Positions 35,617-43,623 of a stretch of 64,000 nt of DNA are shown here, piece after piece. The DNA is from Coniochaeta sp. PMI_546 (taxonomy: Eukaryota > Ascomycota > Sordariomycetes > Coniochaetales > Coniochaetaceae). Each line of letters opens with the position of its first letter. The first letter of the stretch is position 1. The stretch covers positions 2,724,606-2,788,605 of the forward strand of contig MU271144.1 in the NCBI GenBank assembly GCA_021432605.1. The letters run 5' to 3'. Position numbers and translations under genes: made by a program. Below the pieces are notes generated by a model. That model did not search any database and was not told where the DNA came from. It saw nothing but the letters and a program-made list of their open reading frames with translations.

Positions 35617-38600
35617 TCAGTGCTGCGGTGTCTCCGGCACTTCCCAAACACTCTTATCAGCCGCTGCCTCCTTCTGCGGCAAGGACGTCGCACTCCCCGG
35701 GCGCGGAGCGAAAGGGATGGCCGAAGTGGAAGTAAAGACCGGTAGCTCTCGTCTCGCGGGGGTAGGAACCGGCGTGGCGCTGTTCGGCGGCAGCCACTGG
35801 AGCGGCTGCTGCTGCTGAACCACGGGAGGGGTCGGGCCTTCCGGCTGGTACTGGATGAACATGTCGTTCCCTGGGGCCGGAGACTGCATCATCGGCGAGC
35901 TAGGGGGGAGAGGTGTCTGTGCCGGGAAGCTGGGTGCCGTGACCGCGATCTCGTCCTTGGAAGGCGTGACGGGCGCGAAGGGGGCGGTGAGCACTGGTGG
36001 ATTTGGCGCGGCTGGAGACACGGTCTGCTCCGGTTGCCCTGCAACGCCAGCGTTAGACGGGACCTCAGATAAGTCGTCCAGGGACGGGACAGATGGAGAC
36101 ATGGCGACGGAGTGCTCTTTGTCGGCAACGGGGTCGCCTAGTTGAACGGCCGGAATATCTGACATGGCATGGCTGAAAGTAGGTGCTTGGTTCTCGGCCT
36201 TGGCCTTCAGTTCGCGCTCCCTGCGCTCCCGTTCACGTGCATCACGCTGCGCTTGCGTGATGACGGTAATCTTGATCTTCTTCATATCGCCCGTCAGCCT
36301 GTCCATATCGTCGCCCGACTGTCCCGACGACACACCCGATGTGGTCGCGCTGGTAGTGCGACTCATTGCGGGTCTTGCGGGTTGCTTCGAGGACAGTTCA
36401 GCTGCGGGCTTCTTCTGTGTTCGTGGCTGGCGGGGAACAGGTTCCTTCTTAGTGGCGGGCACCACTCTCGTCTTCTTCACCGCCAAGGGGGTCGTTCTTG
36501 CACTCATGGAGGACTCCGGCCGGATACTCTGTGAGGTCTCGGGTCGTAAAGACACGCCGCTGGCGACGTCCGAGACCACGACAGTCGACGCCGCACTAAG
36601 ACGTCGACTGGGCGCCCTCATCTTCTGCGGCACTTTATCGGCAGCAAGAACCGGCCCGGCAACGGTCTTCCGCCTGTTCTTGCTGTCGTCTTCAACCTCT
36701 AGCGGAAGACTTGGCTTCGCCTTGCGCTCGCGTAGCGCCATTCTGGCCGGTGCCGCTCGAGGTTCGGGCGTCGACAAGGCGCTGGTACCCGTGAGACCTG
36801 CCGTTTGGGAGAGGGCAGACTGTCGTGCCTGTCGTGCCCGCGTGGCTTCCGCAGCGAGGTCTTCATGCGTGCAGCTTCCAGTCTGGCGGTCTGCAGGTAT
36901 GAGGAGTTTGCTCAGCTCATATGCTGCGATTGCCCAGGGCACCTCTGGTGGTGGTGGTGTAGGTGGTCGTGATGCGGTCGCATTGCTGAGAGCTGATAGA
37001 CCGGATATACTCCGGCGGACCTTCAAACCTGCAACTACCTTGGCCGAGGAAGCCGCGGTCGGAGAAGAGTAGGTTGGCGGAGTTTGGTTGCGGGGCTTCT
37101 TCGGTTCTTCCACCGGGGCCGGCGCGACCGTAGCCTCAATCCTCTCCAGTTCGGGAAGCGACCACCAAGACGGCTCGTAGGGGCGCGTACCCCGTTCACT
37201 CGCCGACGAGTCCTTTCTCCCGCGTATCTGCCCTGACGATCCCATTCTCTGGGTACCTGACGACACAACCCCCTGAGCGCCCGATGACCCGATTCTCTGA
37301 CCCATCTCGTAGCCAAGTCCGTTGAAGTCCTGATCCTTCACCGTGGGGTCATCGCCCGCCAGTCCGCTCAGGTGGCTGAGGATGCCAGAATAGAGGGCTC
37401 GGTCGCTATAGCCTCCCTCGAGGACACTGATAATGCGACCCTCCACACTTGTTCCCTCCTCAGCTGCAATCCTCACGACATCGCGGGTGAATCGAGCGTA
37501 GAAGTCGGTGGGCACGTTCACATTATGACGCTGCATACCGGCACCCTCCCACTCACTCGCGTCGAAACCTGCTGAAAGGAATATCGCCGCCTTGGAATTC
37601 TGGCCCGCTGCCCGCAGGCGATCCGTCTGGGTCTGGAGGTAGGTGCGAGTCTTGTCCAGTAAGATTGAGTACTTGGACTCGTAAAGCTTCCAGAATTCGG
37701 CCTCGGATCTCCAGGGCTGCAAATGGACGTTCCATACGTTCTGCCCGTGGGCATTGTCGATACACAAACTTGCGTTCTTGACTTTCTCCTCGTCACCCAT
37801 CTCACAGGGGTACGAGTTGATATCGTGGAGACTGAAGTAGCCGATCGACGTCTTCTTCCACCATGCCGCGTTCTTGGAGAGGCCGACGCTCCTCGAATTG
37901 TGCTGCCAGGCTACGGACTGGGACCCGTCGCCGTGGTGCAGATCGAAGTCGATGATAGCGGCGTGAGTGAGACCATGGCTTAGGATCGCGTGCATTATCC
38001 CCACATGGACGTTGTTGATCCAGCAGAAACCAGACGGGTAAGAAGCTGAGCAGTGATGTCCGGGTGGTCGGATGGCAACAAAGGCACGTTTGGGGCCGTT
38101 GCTGTTGTTGAACACGGCGTCGACTGCCTCGCAAACGCCTCCTAGAGCTCCTTCTAAGGCGTCCAAGGACTCCGAGCATAGGTAGAGATCGCCCTCGTGG
38201 AATTTCTTAGGCGTCTCCTGGTCTGGATCGCGTTTCATGTCCGGTCGCTGGAGCTCTTTCCCATTCATGGCGAGCCGCGACTCGGCCGCATCGCACATGA
38301 TTTTCAGCTCCTCCATCCACTTCGTGCCGTGTACATTTGTGACAGTCTGCGACTGCAGTGGTACTCGCCTTGTCGTCTTGTGAATACGGAACGGCACTGT
38401 GGGAATGGAAGCCGAGTTGAGGTTCGGGTGAAGAGGATGTGCGCCTTCCGCATGGCGTTCCCCTAGACGCACGTAAGCAGCAGAAACCCCAAGAACACTA
38501 GCTTTTATTCTCTCTGGTCGTTCGACGATAGTGCTCAGAGCGGCTCGTGAGGTCCGTGGGCGCGAGTATCGGTGCCCATAAACGGAATCGTTTAGCACGA

Positions 38601-39123
38601 CGATGGTCTCGGGTGCCACTTCCGCGCCTGTGGCACTTGTCGCGCCATGGCGTAAGCTTAACTCGTCCTTGAAAAAGTTACTCGCGATAGATTCCGCTGT
38701 ATGCACTGGTCGCTCGGGTATATCGGGTGGGGAGATACTGCGTAGAGGAGATCGTGCGATGCTGGTGTTTGGTGATCGTGGCATCGTGGTGGATAGGTTT
38801 ACCGAGCTGGCGCGCCGTGGGGGGACGACACCGTTCGAAGAATGGAGAGAATTAAGAGAGGCTTTTCGCAGCAGGGTTGGCGTAGAAGAGCGAGATCGAT
38901 TTCCATTGGCGGTGGATGGCGCATTCAAAGGGCTCCGGAGAGCACTACCAGGACGTGGAGTACTAGGTGACCGGTCAACAGCAGGCTTATAAGCTCGTGG
39001 TGATTTAGCTGGTGTCGCGAGTGAAAGATGTTTCAACGACTGCGCCAAGTCGCTATCATTGTTGTTTGGCTTCACCGGCGACCTCCTTGAGGGAGACGGC
39101 GAGGGAGAGAAAGACGACGCCAT
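35617..39123 (-). CDS. Histone deacetylase, Hos3/HosB type
   Basis: Predicted zinc-dependent lysine deacetylase of the fungus-specific Hos3 branch. One uninterrupted exon encodes 1168 residues. Residues 1-170 are a Ser/Pro-rich tail with many S-P sites. The deacetylase domain runs about 170-600 and has all catalytic marks: R-P-P-G-H-H (His356/357), I-D-F-D-L-H-H-G-D-G with zinc ligands Asp394 and His396, S-A-G-F-D with Asp521, and L-E-G-G-Y with Tyr572. After it comes about 550 residues of low-complexity Ala/Pro/Ser/Arg-rich sequence with a charged helix of R-E-R-E-R-R-E-R-E type near 980. Yeast Hos3 is about 700 residues, so the C-terminal extension makes this protein much longer. Nuclear or septal location cannot be decided from the sequence. 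Confidence 0.92.
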   Translation of the reverse strand: MASSFSPSPSPSRRSPVKPNNNDSDLAQSLKHLSLATPAKSPRAYKPAVDRSPSTPRPGSALRSPLNAPSTANGNRSRSSTPTLLRKASLNSLHSSNGVVPPRRASSVNLSTTMPRSPNTSIARSPLRSISPPDIPERPVHTAESIASNFFKDELSLRHGATSATGAEVAPETIVVLNDSVYGHRYSRPRTSRAALSTIVERPERIKASVLGVSAAYVRLGERHAEGAHPLHPNLNSASIPTVPFRIHKTTRRVPLQSQTVTNVHGTKWMEELKIMCDAAESRLAMNGKELQRPDMKRDPDQETPKKFHEGDLYLCSESLDALEGALGGVCEAVDAVFNNSNGPKRAFVAIRPPGHHCSASYPSGFCWINNVHVGIMHAILSHGLTHAAIIDFDLHHGDGSQSVAWQHNSRSVGLSKNAAWWKKTSIGYFSLHDINSYPCEMGDEEKVKNASLCIDNAHGQNVWNVHLQPWRSEAEFWKLYESKYSILLDKTRTYLQTQTDRLRAAGQNSKAAIFLSAGFDASEWEGAGMQRHNVNVPTDFYARFTRDVVRIAAEEGTSVEGRIISVLEGGYSDRALYSGILSHLSGLAGDDPTVKDQDFNGLGYEMGQRIGSSGAQGVVSSGTQRMGSSGQIRGRKDSSASERGTRPYEPSWWSLPELERIEATVAPAPVEEPKKPRNQTPPTYSSPTAASSAKVVAGLKVRRSISGLSALSNATASRPPTPPPPEVPWAIAAYELSKLLIPADRQTGSCTHEDLAAEATRARQARQSALSQTAGLTGTSALSTPEPRAAPARMALRERKAKPSLPLEVEDDSKNRRKTVAGPVLAADKVPQKMRAPSRRLSAASTVVVSDVASGVSLRPETSQSIRPESSMSARTTPLAVKKTRVVPATKKEPVPRQPRTQKKPAAELSSKQPARPAMSRTTSATTSGVSSGQSGDDMDRLTGDMKKIKITVITQAQRDARERERRERELKAKAENQAPTFSHAMSDIPAVQLGDPVADKEHSVAMSPSVPSLDDLSEVPSNAGVAGQPEQTVSPAAPNPPVLTAPFAPVTPSKDEIAVTAPSFPAQTPLPPSSPMMQSPAPGNDMFIQYQPEGPTPPVVQQQQPLQWLPPNSATPVPTPARRELPVFTSTSAIPFAPRPGSATSLPQKEAAADKSVWEVPETPQH

Positions 39124-40002
39124 GGCGATGTTGACAGAAAGTAGGTGGGTATGTCTCAGTGCGTCTCAGTGCGCCTCTACTGGACGAGATGCCCGTTCAG
39201 CAGTAAGGTAATGTTTATGTATCAAGGGCTAAGTGGTTTCAGTCGTTGTCGCATGAAGTCATTGTGCATGGCGCAGAATGTCAAGACAAAGCAGTGGTGG
39301 CAGGACGATCGCGCCGCGTGGTTATATGCAAGGTACAGGCACAGAATGAGTGTTCATCTAAACAGAGGCTTGATAAAAAAAAAGGGAGTCGCGTAAACTT
39401 GGTTGCAGCTGCGCAACCCACGCGTAGACATCCCTGTCGTCATAGTAGCCACTGCACGTGAGAACCACAGCAAAGACATCTTCTGTCTATCTCAGCCATG
39501 TCGTCGTCCCGTTGACGACTCTGCAGTATGCCTCTATTCGTAAACCACTTAGTAACTCGCAATGTTGAACTGGTAGGCTTCAAACCCTTAAAGTAATATT
39601 CCTTCTCTGTCACTTGAAAGCAAATCGTCGCTTTAGTTGGTTTGCTTGCCGCCAGACTGAGAGTGACTGCAAGGCATCGACCGCACCTCTACGCCAAGTA
39701 CCTTCAAAGTCTTACACCTGAGGGTCTTCCACCTTTTACTGCATTGCATGCCAGAACGACGGTTAGCATACACAAGGCTACCTATAGGTTCAATAGCCGT
39801 TTGAATCACTTCATATCAAGTATCGCAAATCAGAAGCTCAATTTGATGTGCTTATATCAACAGCCTTGCGTATCTGAACTGCTCACAGATTCAACCCGAC
39901 ATAACAAGAAAAACAGCTGTGCTAAAAGCGAAACGCCACCCTAGTTCTCATCAAGAAAAACAAGAAATGCACTTTCCAAAACAACCTGAGCATGGCGCAA
40001 TC
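39124..40002. other. Intergenic: HDAC promoter and CPSase 3' flank
   Basis: This contains the deacetylase gene's upstream region and the 3' end of the next minus-strand gene. A run of nine A is present at 39376-39384. No ORF of interest. Confidence 0.6.
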
Positions 40003-41454
40003 TTAAGCGGCGGTGCTAGCCAGAGGCGAAGGCTCAACACCAACACGCTCCTTGCTGAGGATGTCCAACAACAGCCGAGATGGCCTGTTGTCCCGGTACA
40101 CCTTCTCGTTGTCCTTGAACATCTTGACGCTGTTGATATACTTGTCGAACAGGAACGAGCTGTCCATAGGGCCACCCTTCGCCTCGGGGTGGAACTGGGT
40201 CGAGAAGATGGGGCGGGTCTTGTGCAGCATGCCCTCGTTGCTGCCGTCGTTGAGGTTGACGAAGTACTCCTTGAAGTCGCTGGGCAGTGTGCTCGAGTCG
40301 ACAGCGTAGCCGTGGTTCTGCGAAGTGATGTGGCACTGACCAGTGGTCAAGTCCAGAGCAGGGATATTGTGAGCACGATTTCCGTACTTCATCTTGATGG
40401 TCCGGGCACCAATGGCAAGGGCCAGAAGTTGGTGTCCAAGACAGATGCCCATGACAGGGACCGGTGAAGTTTCCATCAGCCGGGCCAAGTTGTAGACAGT
40501 CTCCTGGCAATGAGTCGGGTCACCAGGTCCGTTGGAGATGAAGACGCCGTCAAAGTTATCGGCCACCTTGTGAATGGGATAGTTGTACGGGAAGACCGTG
40601 ACGGAGGCGCCGCGGCTAACCAAGCTCCGGAGAATGTTCTCCTTGACACCACAGTCGATCAGGGCAATGTGGAAGGAAGCATTCGGAGCTTCAACCACGA
40701 AGGGGGCCTTGGTGCTAACCCGCTTGACAAGGTTGATCTGGCCGGGGTCGACGAAGCTCTCATCCTCGTCCGCGTCGTACTCGTCACCAATGGAGATGCG
40801 GGCAAGCGACGAACCCCGCTCGCGGAGATAGGTGACAATAGCACGCGTATCAACGCCAGAGATGGCTGGAACGCCCTCGCGGGCGCACCAGTCGCTCAAG
40901 CTCTCCACCGCCGTCCAATGGCTGTATTGCAGAGCCACATCGGACACGACAACACCGGCGCACTGAATATGAGGCGACTCGAAGTACTTCAGCAGATTGT
41001 ACTCGTCGCGTTCGCTGGAGGGGACACCGTAATTGCCGATAAGCGGCTGGGTGAAGACCAGGATCTGGCCGCGGTACGAGGGATCGGTCATGGACTCGGG
41101 GTATCCCACGAGGGACGTGGTGAACACGGCTTCTCCAGAGATATTGGAGTTTGCTCCAAAGGCAGTGCCATGGAAAACGGGGCCGTCCTACAGTGGAGAG
41201 GGTTAGCGTGAATCTCGCGTGCATTTTGCAAGCAGAACACCGGGGATCAGGCCTACCCTGATGGTGAAGGTGGCTTCCATGTTCTCGGAGACAGGAGCAG
41301 TGGTGCGGTAATTGTGAGCAGGCATGGTCCTGCCCTTGCTACCAGCAGCAACCTTCTGGCTCATGAAGCGGGCATTGTTCGCGAGGCGAGACGAGAGGCC
41401 GGCGGCACCCAAAGCCGAGGGCCGATAGGCACGAACTGCAAAGCGGGAGAACAT
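40003..41454 (-). CDS. CPA1: Carbamoyl-phosphate synthase, arginine-specific small chain
   Basis: Glutaminase subunit (CPA1; arg-2 in Neurospora) that supplies ammonia to the large subunit to make carbamoyl phosphate for arginine synthesis. Exons 41257-41454 and 40003-41187 join in frame to 460 residues. The first 40-50 residues ([14 protein letters not shown]) are basic, hydroxylated and lack acids, a mitochondrial presequence as known for Neurospora ARG-2. The C-terminal class-I glutamine amidotransferase has its triad intact: Cys315 in M-G-I-C-L-G-H-Q, and His399 and Glu401 in Q-F-H-P-E-A. The N-terminal half is the CPSase small-chain domain. The ATG at 41454 is the first ATG after the uORF stop and has A at -3. 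Expression should be controlled by the arginine attenuator peptide encoded just upstream. Confidence 0.95.
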
Positions 41455-41517
41455 ATTGTCGGGGTTTTGATGTTCGGAGAGAATGTGGTCAAATGTGCTC
41501 TGAAGCAAGAGTAGACC

Positions 41518-41857
41518 TTAAGCGGAAAGGGACCTCCACAGATGGTCTGTCATGCAAGTTAGTAAAACGAAGCGGTGAGTCAGTGCGAGTTCTGGAGCCG
41601 AAAAGACCGACCTGAGAGATAATCCTGCAAAGAATGCGTTAGCCAAACTCATTCTCAAGGTATGATATTCGACTTGGATGAGTGATAGAGGGCAATTGGC
41701 TTGTTTGGGGCCTGGAGTCTGGTGTTTGCTCAACATCCAGAGACACTCCTTCAACGAGGCCAAGTGACGCATGCGGGGGGTCGACATTGGACAGACAAGG
41801 ACGACACCAACAATGAAAACGTACCTGAGAGGTGAAGACTGACGGGCGACCGTTCAT
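41518..41857 (-). CDS. Spliced uORF: arginine attenuator peptide (AAP)
   Basis: A 24-residue leader peptide encoded upstream of CPA1. In Neurospora this nascent peptide stalls the ribosome at its own stop codon when arginine is plentiful, blocking reinitiation at the main ORF and exposing the mRNA to decay. Here it is split over three exons: 41825-41857 (M-N-G-R-P-S-V-F-T-S-Q), 41612-41624 (13 bases, D-Y-L-S and one base) and 41518-41546 (rest of Asp, then H-L-W-R-S-L-S-A and TAA). The joined length is exactly 24 codons plus stop. It matches the Neurospora peptide as I remember it except for Ser at 21 and 23. Asp12, whose change abolishes regulation in Neurospora, is present. The uORF start context is weak (C at -3), as leaky scanning would need. 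The stop lies 63 bases before the CPA1 ATG, with no ATG between. Confidence 0.92.
41576..41582. promoter_or_regulatory. TGAGTCA Gcn4/CPC1-type site inside uORF intron
   Basis: A perfect TGA(C/G)TCA palindrome, the binding consensus of Gcn4 and Neurospora CPC1, which activate amino-acid biosynthetic genes under cross-pathway control. It lies inside the second intron of the AAP uORF, downstream of the presumed transcription start. Function is inferred from the motif and the gene it serves. Confidence 0.45.
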
Positions 41858-42710: not shown

Positions 42711-43623
42711 CTATAGTGCACCTAGTTCCTTAAGCTTCGAGATAAGACCATCGACATCGTCGACCTTACCGCCTCCTTGCCTCGGTGGTGGTTCTGTAGC
42801 ACACCGTCAGTCAACACGTAGATGTAATGGAAACCGGAGCATTCCAGCCTAGAGAAAGAGGGGACATACCTGTAACCTTGACAATCTTCAACCTCCTCTC
42901 GGCCGTAATGCCAAAGTCTTCCAGCTTCTTCTTCTCCAAGGGCTTCTTCTTCGCCTTCATGATATTCGGCAGACTCGCATACCGCGGCTCGTTCAACCGC
43001 AAATCCGTCGTGATAACCATCGGCAGCTTAGCCCGCACCGTCTCGGACCCGCCATCGACCTCTCGAGTGACAGTGACCGCATCGCCCTCCTTCTCAAACG
43101 TGACCTTGCTCGCCTGTGTCGCCTGCGGCCAGCCAAGCAGACCAGCAAGCATCTGGCCCGTCTGGTTGGCGTCGTCGTCGATGCTCTGCTTGCCGAGGAT
43201 TACGAGGTTGCTCTTCTGCTGCTCAACGGCAGCCTTCAGCAGTTTAGCGACGGACAGCGGCTCGAGGTCCTCGCCCTCCTTCGTCTCGACGTGGATAGCA
43301 CGGTCGGCGCCCATGGCCATTGCTGTTCGAAGAATGTCTTGTGCCTTGGGTGGTCCGGCCGAGATGACACAGATGTCCTCCACACCGCCGGGGGCGGACT
43401 TCTTCTCCCGGATGCGCACGCTTTCCTCGACTGATAGCTCGTCAAAGGGGTTCATGCTGTGCTTGACGTTGGTCTCGACGCCCGTTTGGGCCTTGTTGAC
43501 GCGAGGTTTGACCTGGGAGAGGCAGCTGTTAGTACGTCAAGGCGACGCCGTCCCAGGTTTCTTTTCACCTACAGCATAGTCAATCACCCGCTTGACGGGG
43601 ACGAGAATTCGTAATGCAGACAT
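42711..43623 (-). CDS. Electron transfer flavoprotein beta subunit
   Basis: Mitochondrial matrix ETF-beta, which with ETF-alpha carries electrons from acyl-CoA and other dehydrogenases to ETF-ubiquinone oxidoreductase. Exons 43573-43623, 42870-43512 and 42711-42793 join in frame to 258 residues, the usual length. Marks are the N-terminal M-S-A-L-R-I-L-V-P-V-K-R-V-I-D-Y, then K-P-R-V-N-K-A-Q-T-G-V and N-P-F-D-E-L-S-V-E-E-S-V-R-I. The nucleotide-binding and recognition-loop part is L-G-K-Q-S-I-D-D-D-A-N-Q-T-G-Q-M and L-P-M-V-I-T-T-D-L-R-L-N-E-P-R-Y-A-S-L-P-N-I-M-K-A-K-K-K. As in other ETF-beta proteins there is no long cleavable presequence. The C-terminal exon ends in a coiled L-I-S-K-L-K-E-L segment. 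A telomere-type motif lies about 160 bases upstream. Confidence 0.95.

Follow-up and report, generated by a model that had tools for sequence, protein, structure and literature searches.

The arginine attenuator peptide (AAP) is a well-studied nascent peptide that senses a metabolite. For the N. crassa and yeast genes, both ribosome stalling and nonsense-mediated decay (NMD) have been described (PMC11550727, PMC7049704), and ribosome footprints have been reported on the upstream open reading frame (uORF) of N. crassa arg-2 (PMC5487733). A review gives Asp12, Tyr13, position 14 (printed as Lys14) and Trp19 as critical for AAP stalling, as far as the excerpt of that source goes (PMC3130931). In the accessible part of the report on the Trichoderma virens Xlr2 microexon, functional microexons in filamentous fungi are called previously undescribed, and reads joining exon 1 to exon 3 were absent, so that Xlr2 does not represent simple skipping (PMC11121469).

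The window analysed here, meaning the whole stretch of 64 kb, carries a uORF of the AAP type on its minus strand. Its parts, as placed by a peptide-guided splice model, are the following.

41825 to 41857, minus strand: putative AAP uORF exon 1, 33 nt, encoding M1 to Q11
41625 to 41824, minus strand: putative uORF intron 1, in phase 0 between Q11 and D12, 200 nt, with donor CAG/GTACGT, branch site GCTAAC and acceptor GCAG
41612 to 41624, minus strand: putative microexon GATTATCTCTCAG, 13 nt, encoding D12, Y13, L14 and S15, plus base 1 of the D16 codon
41547 to 41611, minus strand: putative uORF intron 2, interrupting codon 16 in phase 1, 65 nt, with donor CAG/GTCGGT, branch site TACTAAC and acceptor ACAG
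41518 to 41546, minus strand: putative uORF exon 3, 29 nt, encoding the rest of D16 and H17 to A24, with the TAA at 41518-41520

Joined and translated, the minus-strand exons 41857-41825, 41624-41612 and 41546-41518 give MNGRPSVFTSQDYLSDHLWRSLSA followed by a stop. This peptide is identical at 22 of 24 residues to PDB 2xl1_A, named 'ARGININE ATTENUATOR PEPTIDE' (E 2e-12), and Pfam family PF08252 (Leader_CPA1) matches its residues 1-23 with an E value of 1.5e-14 and 53.5 bits, the cut-off being 18.5. On these comparisons a chance match to the AAP is excluded, and the identification of the uORF as the arginine attenuator peptide uORF of CPA1 is supported. The original prediction had placed an AAP upstream of CPA1 in three exons, the middle one of 13 nt, separated by two introns, and both the peptide and the coordinates stood. 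Neither viral nor bacterial/archaeal contigs contained an exact match to a degenerate pattern of the AAP's first 11 codons. D12, Y13, L14 and W19 are all present in the spliced MNGRPSVFTSQDYLSDHLWRSLSA; position 14 is Leu both here and in 2xl1, as against the Lys14 printed in the excerpted review (PMC3130931).

The splice model was compared with alternatives by enumerating GT-AG models from the uORF ATG, with the first donor at most 75 nt from the ATG, introns of 40-350 nt and a middle exon of 3-75 nt. The enumeration covered the model with no intron, 202 one-intron models and 2438 two-intron models (2640 intron-containing). A score of 22/24 was unique to the three-exon model among those enumerated, the runner-up reaching 17, so a single good solution is left when the sequence is read against the conserved peptide. 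That solution needs both introns removed, in line with the earlier claim that the peptide is complete only once two introns are taken out. Within the enumerated models, we infer from the peptide that the three AAP exons are spliced together. The best of the 2640 intron-containing models thereby includes a very short internal exon of 13 nt, placed under the guidance of the peptide. Exon 1 (at 41825-41831) and the microexon (at 41612-41618) both end in CTCTCAG and are then followed by GT, so a junction made at the microexon's end would restore the CAG/GTCGGT donor, a possible instance of recursive splicing.

The same enumeration also produced a look-alike made with one intron. When a donor lying 13 nt inside intron 1, at 41811, is joined to exon 3 (at 41546), the product is the 24-residue MNGRPSVFTSQVRFHYHLWRSLSA, which has the length and both ends of the AAP, and which carries VRFHY in place of DYLSD and would be without the sensing core. 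That cells make this product is extremely improbable. Its donor, ATT/GTTGGT, scores by matrix above only 1 of 45 putative introns in a self-trained comparison set, with U1 pairing stronger than 7 of the 45; a 265-nt intron would be required; and one such product in 202 one-intron models may be due to chance.

The AAP and its mechanism are already known, and what the three-exon uORF adds is the finely split code. A partial literature search gave no description of introns inside an AAP uORF, which is weak evidence. Introns in the AAP uORF of other filamentous ascomycetes may have been discussed before, and no novelty is claimed for the split.

Following the uORF on the same strand is the CPA1 gene, with these features.

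41455 to 41517, minus strand: spacer from the uORF stop to the CPA1 ATG, 63 nt
41257 to 41454, minus strand: CPA1 coding exon 1, 66 codons, with A at -3 of the ATG
41188 to 41256, minus strand: CPA1 coding intron, 69 nt
40003 to 41187, minus strand: CPA1 coding exon 2, 394 codons and the stop

The CPA1 ATG at 41454 is the next start codon after the uORF in the spliced leader, and the protein of 460 residues contains the CPSase small-chain (PF00988) and class-I glutamine amidotransferase (GATase, PF00117) domains. The uORF and CPA1 are presumably carried on one transcript. The uORF starts in the context GCGCTT/ATG, with C at -3, and the CPA1 AUG has A at that position. C at -3 is a poor start context, and the uORF start would by this measure permit leaky scanning. 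A second CPA1 homologue, 52-53% identical, was found on contig C1 of the genome examined (33.5 Mb, 24 contigs). Matches to the CPSase large chain and to OTCace_N lie on its strand within 7 kb, and this homologue is probably the pyrimidine enzyme. The neighbours of CPA1 on the minus strand include two ORFs, a long one with a histone deacetylase domain (35617-39165) and another with an electron transfer flavoprotein domain (42811-43536).

The account that we consider very likely is a three-exon AAP uORF of CPA1 that is constitutively spliced, with arginine acting through ribosome stalling. CPA1 encodes the small subunit of the arginine-specific carbamoyl-phosphate synthetase, and ordinary intron definition would most likely suffice to remove both uORF introns constitutively. 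In the mature mRNA, the poor-context uORF AUG would be used by part of the ribosomes. At high arginine, the nascent AAP, to which the microexon contributes D12-Y13-L14 and exon 3 contributes W19, would stall the ribosome at the uORF stop, which would block scanning to CPA1 and probably expose the mRNA to nonsense-mediated decay. At low arginine, ribosomes would terminate at the uORF or scan past it, and CPA1 would be translated. Arginine sensing would presuppose splicing, and mis-spliced leaders would be non-sensing and poorly translated. The peptide, the gene context, the splice anatomy and the isoform products form the observed part of this account; the actual splicing, stalling and decay are its expected part.

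Four mis-spliced leaders were translated, one with the microexon skipped and the others with intron 1, intron 2 or both introns kept. Skipping the microexon gives a 72-codon uORF that overruns the CPA1 AUG in a different frame. With intron 1 kept, the uORF again has 72 codons and is accompanied by four further upstream AUGs; with both introns kept there are six upstream AUGs in total. When intron 2 alone is kept, the uORF has 25 codons, the first 15 of which are those of the AAP, and is joined by a second uORF, MTDHLWRSLSA, starting at an AUG within intron 2 (41547-41611) in frame with exon 3. The original prediction had held that incompletely spliced leaders share the same first eleven codons and cannot stall. 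The number needs correction, since a leader in which intron 2 alone is kept has 15 codons in common with the AAP. The loss of stalling agrees with the translations, in which the four forms lose W19, or both D12 and W19, and arginine stalling is therefore not expected of them. Because they carry a longer, overlapping or extra uORF, they point to a constitutively low CPA1 level, not to an arginine-insensitive high state. Such leaders should reduce CPA1 translation and invite NMD, and any splicing switch would be an off-switch, not an arginine-blind on-switch.

Incomplete splicing is plausible, given the very small size of a 13-nt exon, and the strength of the splice signals was compared with that of other introns. 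The comparison set was self-trained on 264 kb with introns up to 130 nt, and the 45 higher-scoring of 60 putative introns were used. The 60-intron set required a branch-site motif, and the donor matrix, with its bias towards consensus donors, itself had a part in choosing the 45; the set of 45 is small and noisy and has false members, so percentiles drawn from it are rough. Without the donor matrix, G at +5 occurred in only 32 of 70 putative introns, which suggests that an appreciable share of the raw intron set is false. CAGGTCGGT scored above 59% of 64 putative introns in an earlier, noisy-looking set, and above 67% of 60 once the branch-site motif was required.

The donor of intron 2 had been called weak on account of its GTCGGT. 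The hexamer is indeed uncommon, with C at +3 in 4 of the 45 putative introns and G at +4 in 8 of them, but taken as the 9-mer CAG/GTCGGT the donor exceeds 25 of the 45 by matrix score and 35 of the 45 by strength of U1 pairing, both within the small, self-trained set. The U1 pairing energies of the intron 2 and intron 1 donors are about alike (-7.5 vs -7.4 kcal/mol). On this rough comparison, 'ordinary to slightly unusual' probably describes the intron 2 donor better than weak. Both uORF introns have a CTAAC branch site (GCTAAC in intron 1, TACTAAC in intron 2) and both donors read CAG/GT; the branch-to-acceptor distances are 15 nt in intron 1 and 13 nt in intron 2, with a median of 14 in the 45 putative introns. 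Intron 1, at 200 nt, is long against the median of 66 nt in the same set, which reached only 130 nt.

These signals bear on the idea, raised in the original prediction, that leader splicing is itself regulated: conditions would govern whether the microexon is included or intron 2 retained, and with that the arginine-sensing share of CPA1 mRNA. The microexon holds 3 of the 4 positions listed as critical (D12, Y13 and position 14) in the excerpted review (PMC3130931), a point absent from the original prediction and the strongest argument for a coupling of splicing and sensing, at least a passive one, and its loss would remove D12-Y13-L14. The C at +3 of intron 2, with only 4 counterparts among 45 putative introns, speaks for regulation as well. 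Precedents come from the glucose-controlled 20-nt microexon of Trichoderma virens Xlr2 (PMC11121469) and from the N. crassa SAM decarboxylase (SDC) leader, which is spliced with and without its uORFs (PMC5640933), each as given in the accessible part of its source. According to the same part of the latter, the SDC hairpin does not act through leader splicing, and the regulation of that splicing is left open (PMC5640933). Against a switch at the present locus stand the intron 2 donor, apparently ordinary as a 9-mer, its TACTAAC branch site and the ordinary branch spacing in both uORF introns. A search for riboswitches or known ligand-binding RNAs covered 4227 Rfam families, none of which reached gathering score in the 64-kb window, and the predicted fold of the 506-nt leader region is no better than those of its shuffles (z 0.73; 73 of 100 shuffles at least as good). 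All four mis-spliced forms, in addition, predict low CPA1. Regulated leader splicing is therefore rated improbable beside constitutive splicing with control at the ribosome.

A different kind of control is suggested by a motif inside uORF intron 2. The sequence TGASTCA, the cross-pathway control element (CPRE), is described as the CPC-1/CpcA site (PMC7289440, PMC3199737), and one exact match was found.

41576 to 41582, minus strand: TGACTCA, exact match to the CPRE (TGASTCA), a candidate element inside uORF intron 2

The match lies about 120 nt before the CPA1 ATG and is the only TGASTCA within 42810-41400. In the 64-kb window there are 3 copies, fewer than the 11.5 predicted by shuffles, and the whole-genome density was used instead for this reason. 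With 2415 copies in 33.48 Mb, or 1 per 13.9 kb, the expected number in the 404-nt CPA1 leader is 0.03. Intron 2 may thus contain a CpcA/Gcn4-type element of CPA1 that, under amino-acid starvation, would either enhance the upstream promoter from within the intron or serve as an internal promoter, giving transcripts that skip the AAP. In the internal-promoter form, CPA1 mRNA would start after the AAP AUG and escape arginine attenuation. Yeast Gcn4 is able to act within transcribed regions.

As a rough control, the upstream spans of six amino-acid genes, 5258 bases in all, were scanned; they contain 5 TGASTCA where 0.38 would be expected (Poisson P 5e-5), with two copies each at CPA2 and ILV5, one at HIS4 and none at HIS3, TRP3 or OTC. 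The gene families were chosen by the author, a clear candidate ATG was required, and the spans ran from 532 to 1000 nt, being shortened for two genes; the 1-kb span and the clear-ATG rule were fixed after the sites were already known. ARG1 (L026) and HIS1 (L032) were left out for an unclear ATG. The ARG1 site is 450 nt ahead of the first codon that matched; the HIS1 site is 177 nt ahead of its match and runs out of a GTGAGT, itself a possible donor. Also left out were a histidinol dehydrogenase paralogue (L030, site within the match), L029 (site at the far side of the gene), a URA2-type region with no site (L042) and a CPA2 site 1034 nt before the ATG; eight loci (L023, L025, L027, L031, L035 and L037 to L039) lay outside the motif scan. 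Sites 326, 324 and 411 nt after the candidate ATG in CPA2, ILV5 and OTC were likewise not counted, and they indicate that intragenic copies are not special to CPA1. The OTC copy, a TGAGTCA in gene sense on the minus strand of its locus (L036, 1822-1828), lies just after a donor-like CAG/GT, and OTC has no copy in the 1 kb upstream.

The exact TGACTCA, standing alone in an otherwise empty 42810-41400, and the enrichment before the six genes are what the intron 2 element has in its favour. It is, however, a single 7-mer with a chance of about 3% for any site in a 404-nt leader, half of the control genes lack an upstream copy, and genome-wide the motif is about as common as the reversed control pattern (2415 vs 2319). 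We regard an active element in intron 2 as tentative and somewhat unlikely. A more elaborate version is doubtful to a higher degree: in amino-acid starvation, CpcA on the intron 2 TGACTCA would fire an internal promoter and so yield transcripts with no AAP AUG, leader replacement would override arginine attenuation, and the microexon would keep the sensing residues from incompletely spliced transcripts. If a starvation element does lie in the AAP intron, general amino-acid control and arginine-specific control would be joined in one short stretch of DNA, in a form that can be tested directly. If the sensing residues of the AAP are indeed carried on a 13-nt exon, every shift in splicing would directly determine how much of the mRNA can sense arginine. 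Gene finders that disregard leader introns would overlook the AAP.

Compared with known systems, the locus resembles Trichoderma virens Xlr2 in belonging to a filamentous fungus and in placing functionally important residues on a tiny exon (20 nt there, 13 nt here). In the accessible part of the Xlr2 report, RNA-seq showed expression to depend on glucose, and the microexon belongs to a transcription factor (PMC11121469), whereas the AAP microexon is predicted from DNA sequence. The N. crassa SDC and TPP riboswitch leaders, in the excerpt that describes them, likewise have their uORF content set by leader splicing (PMC5640933); they differ from the CPA1 leader, which was deduced from genomic sequence and lies in a window with no Rfam match. 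The closest relative is the AAP of N. crassa arg-2 and fungal CPA1, with which MNGRPSVFTSQDYLSDHLWRSLSA shares 22 of the 24 residues of 2xl1, the length and the position before the CPSase small subunit. The peptide departs from PDB 2xl1 at two positions close to the C-terminus (A21S and N23S), and the code is here split by two introns around an exon of 13 nt.
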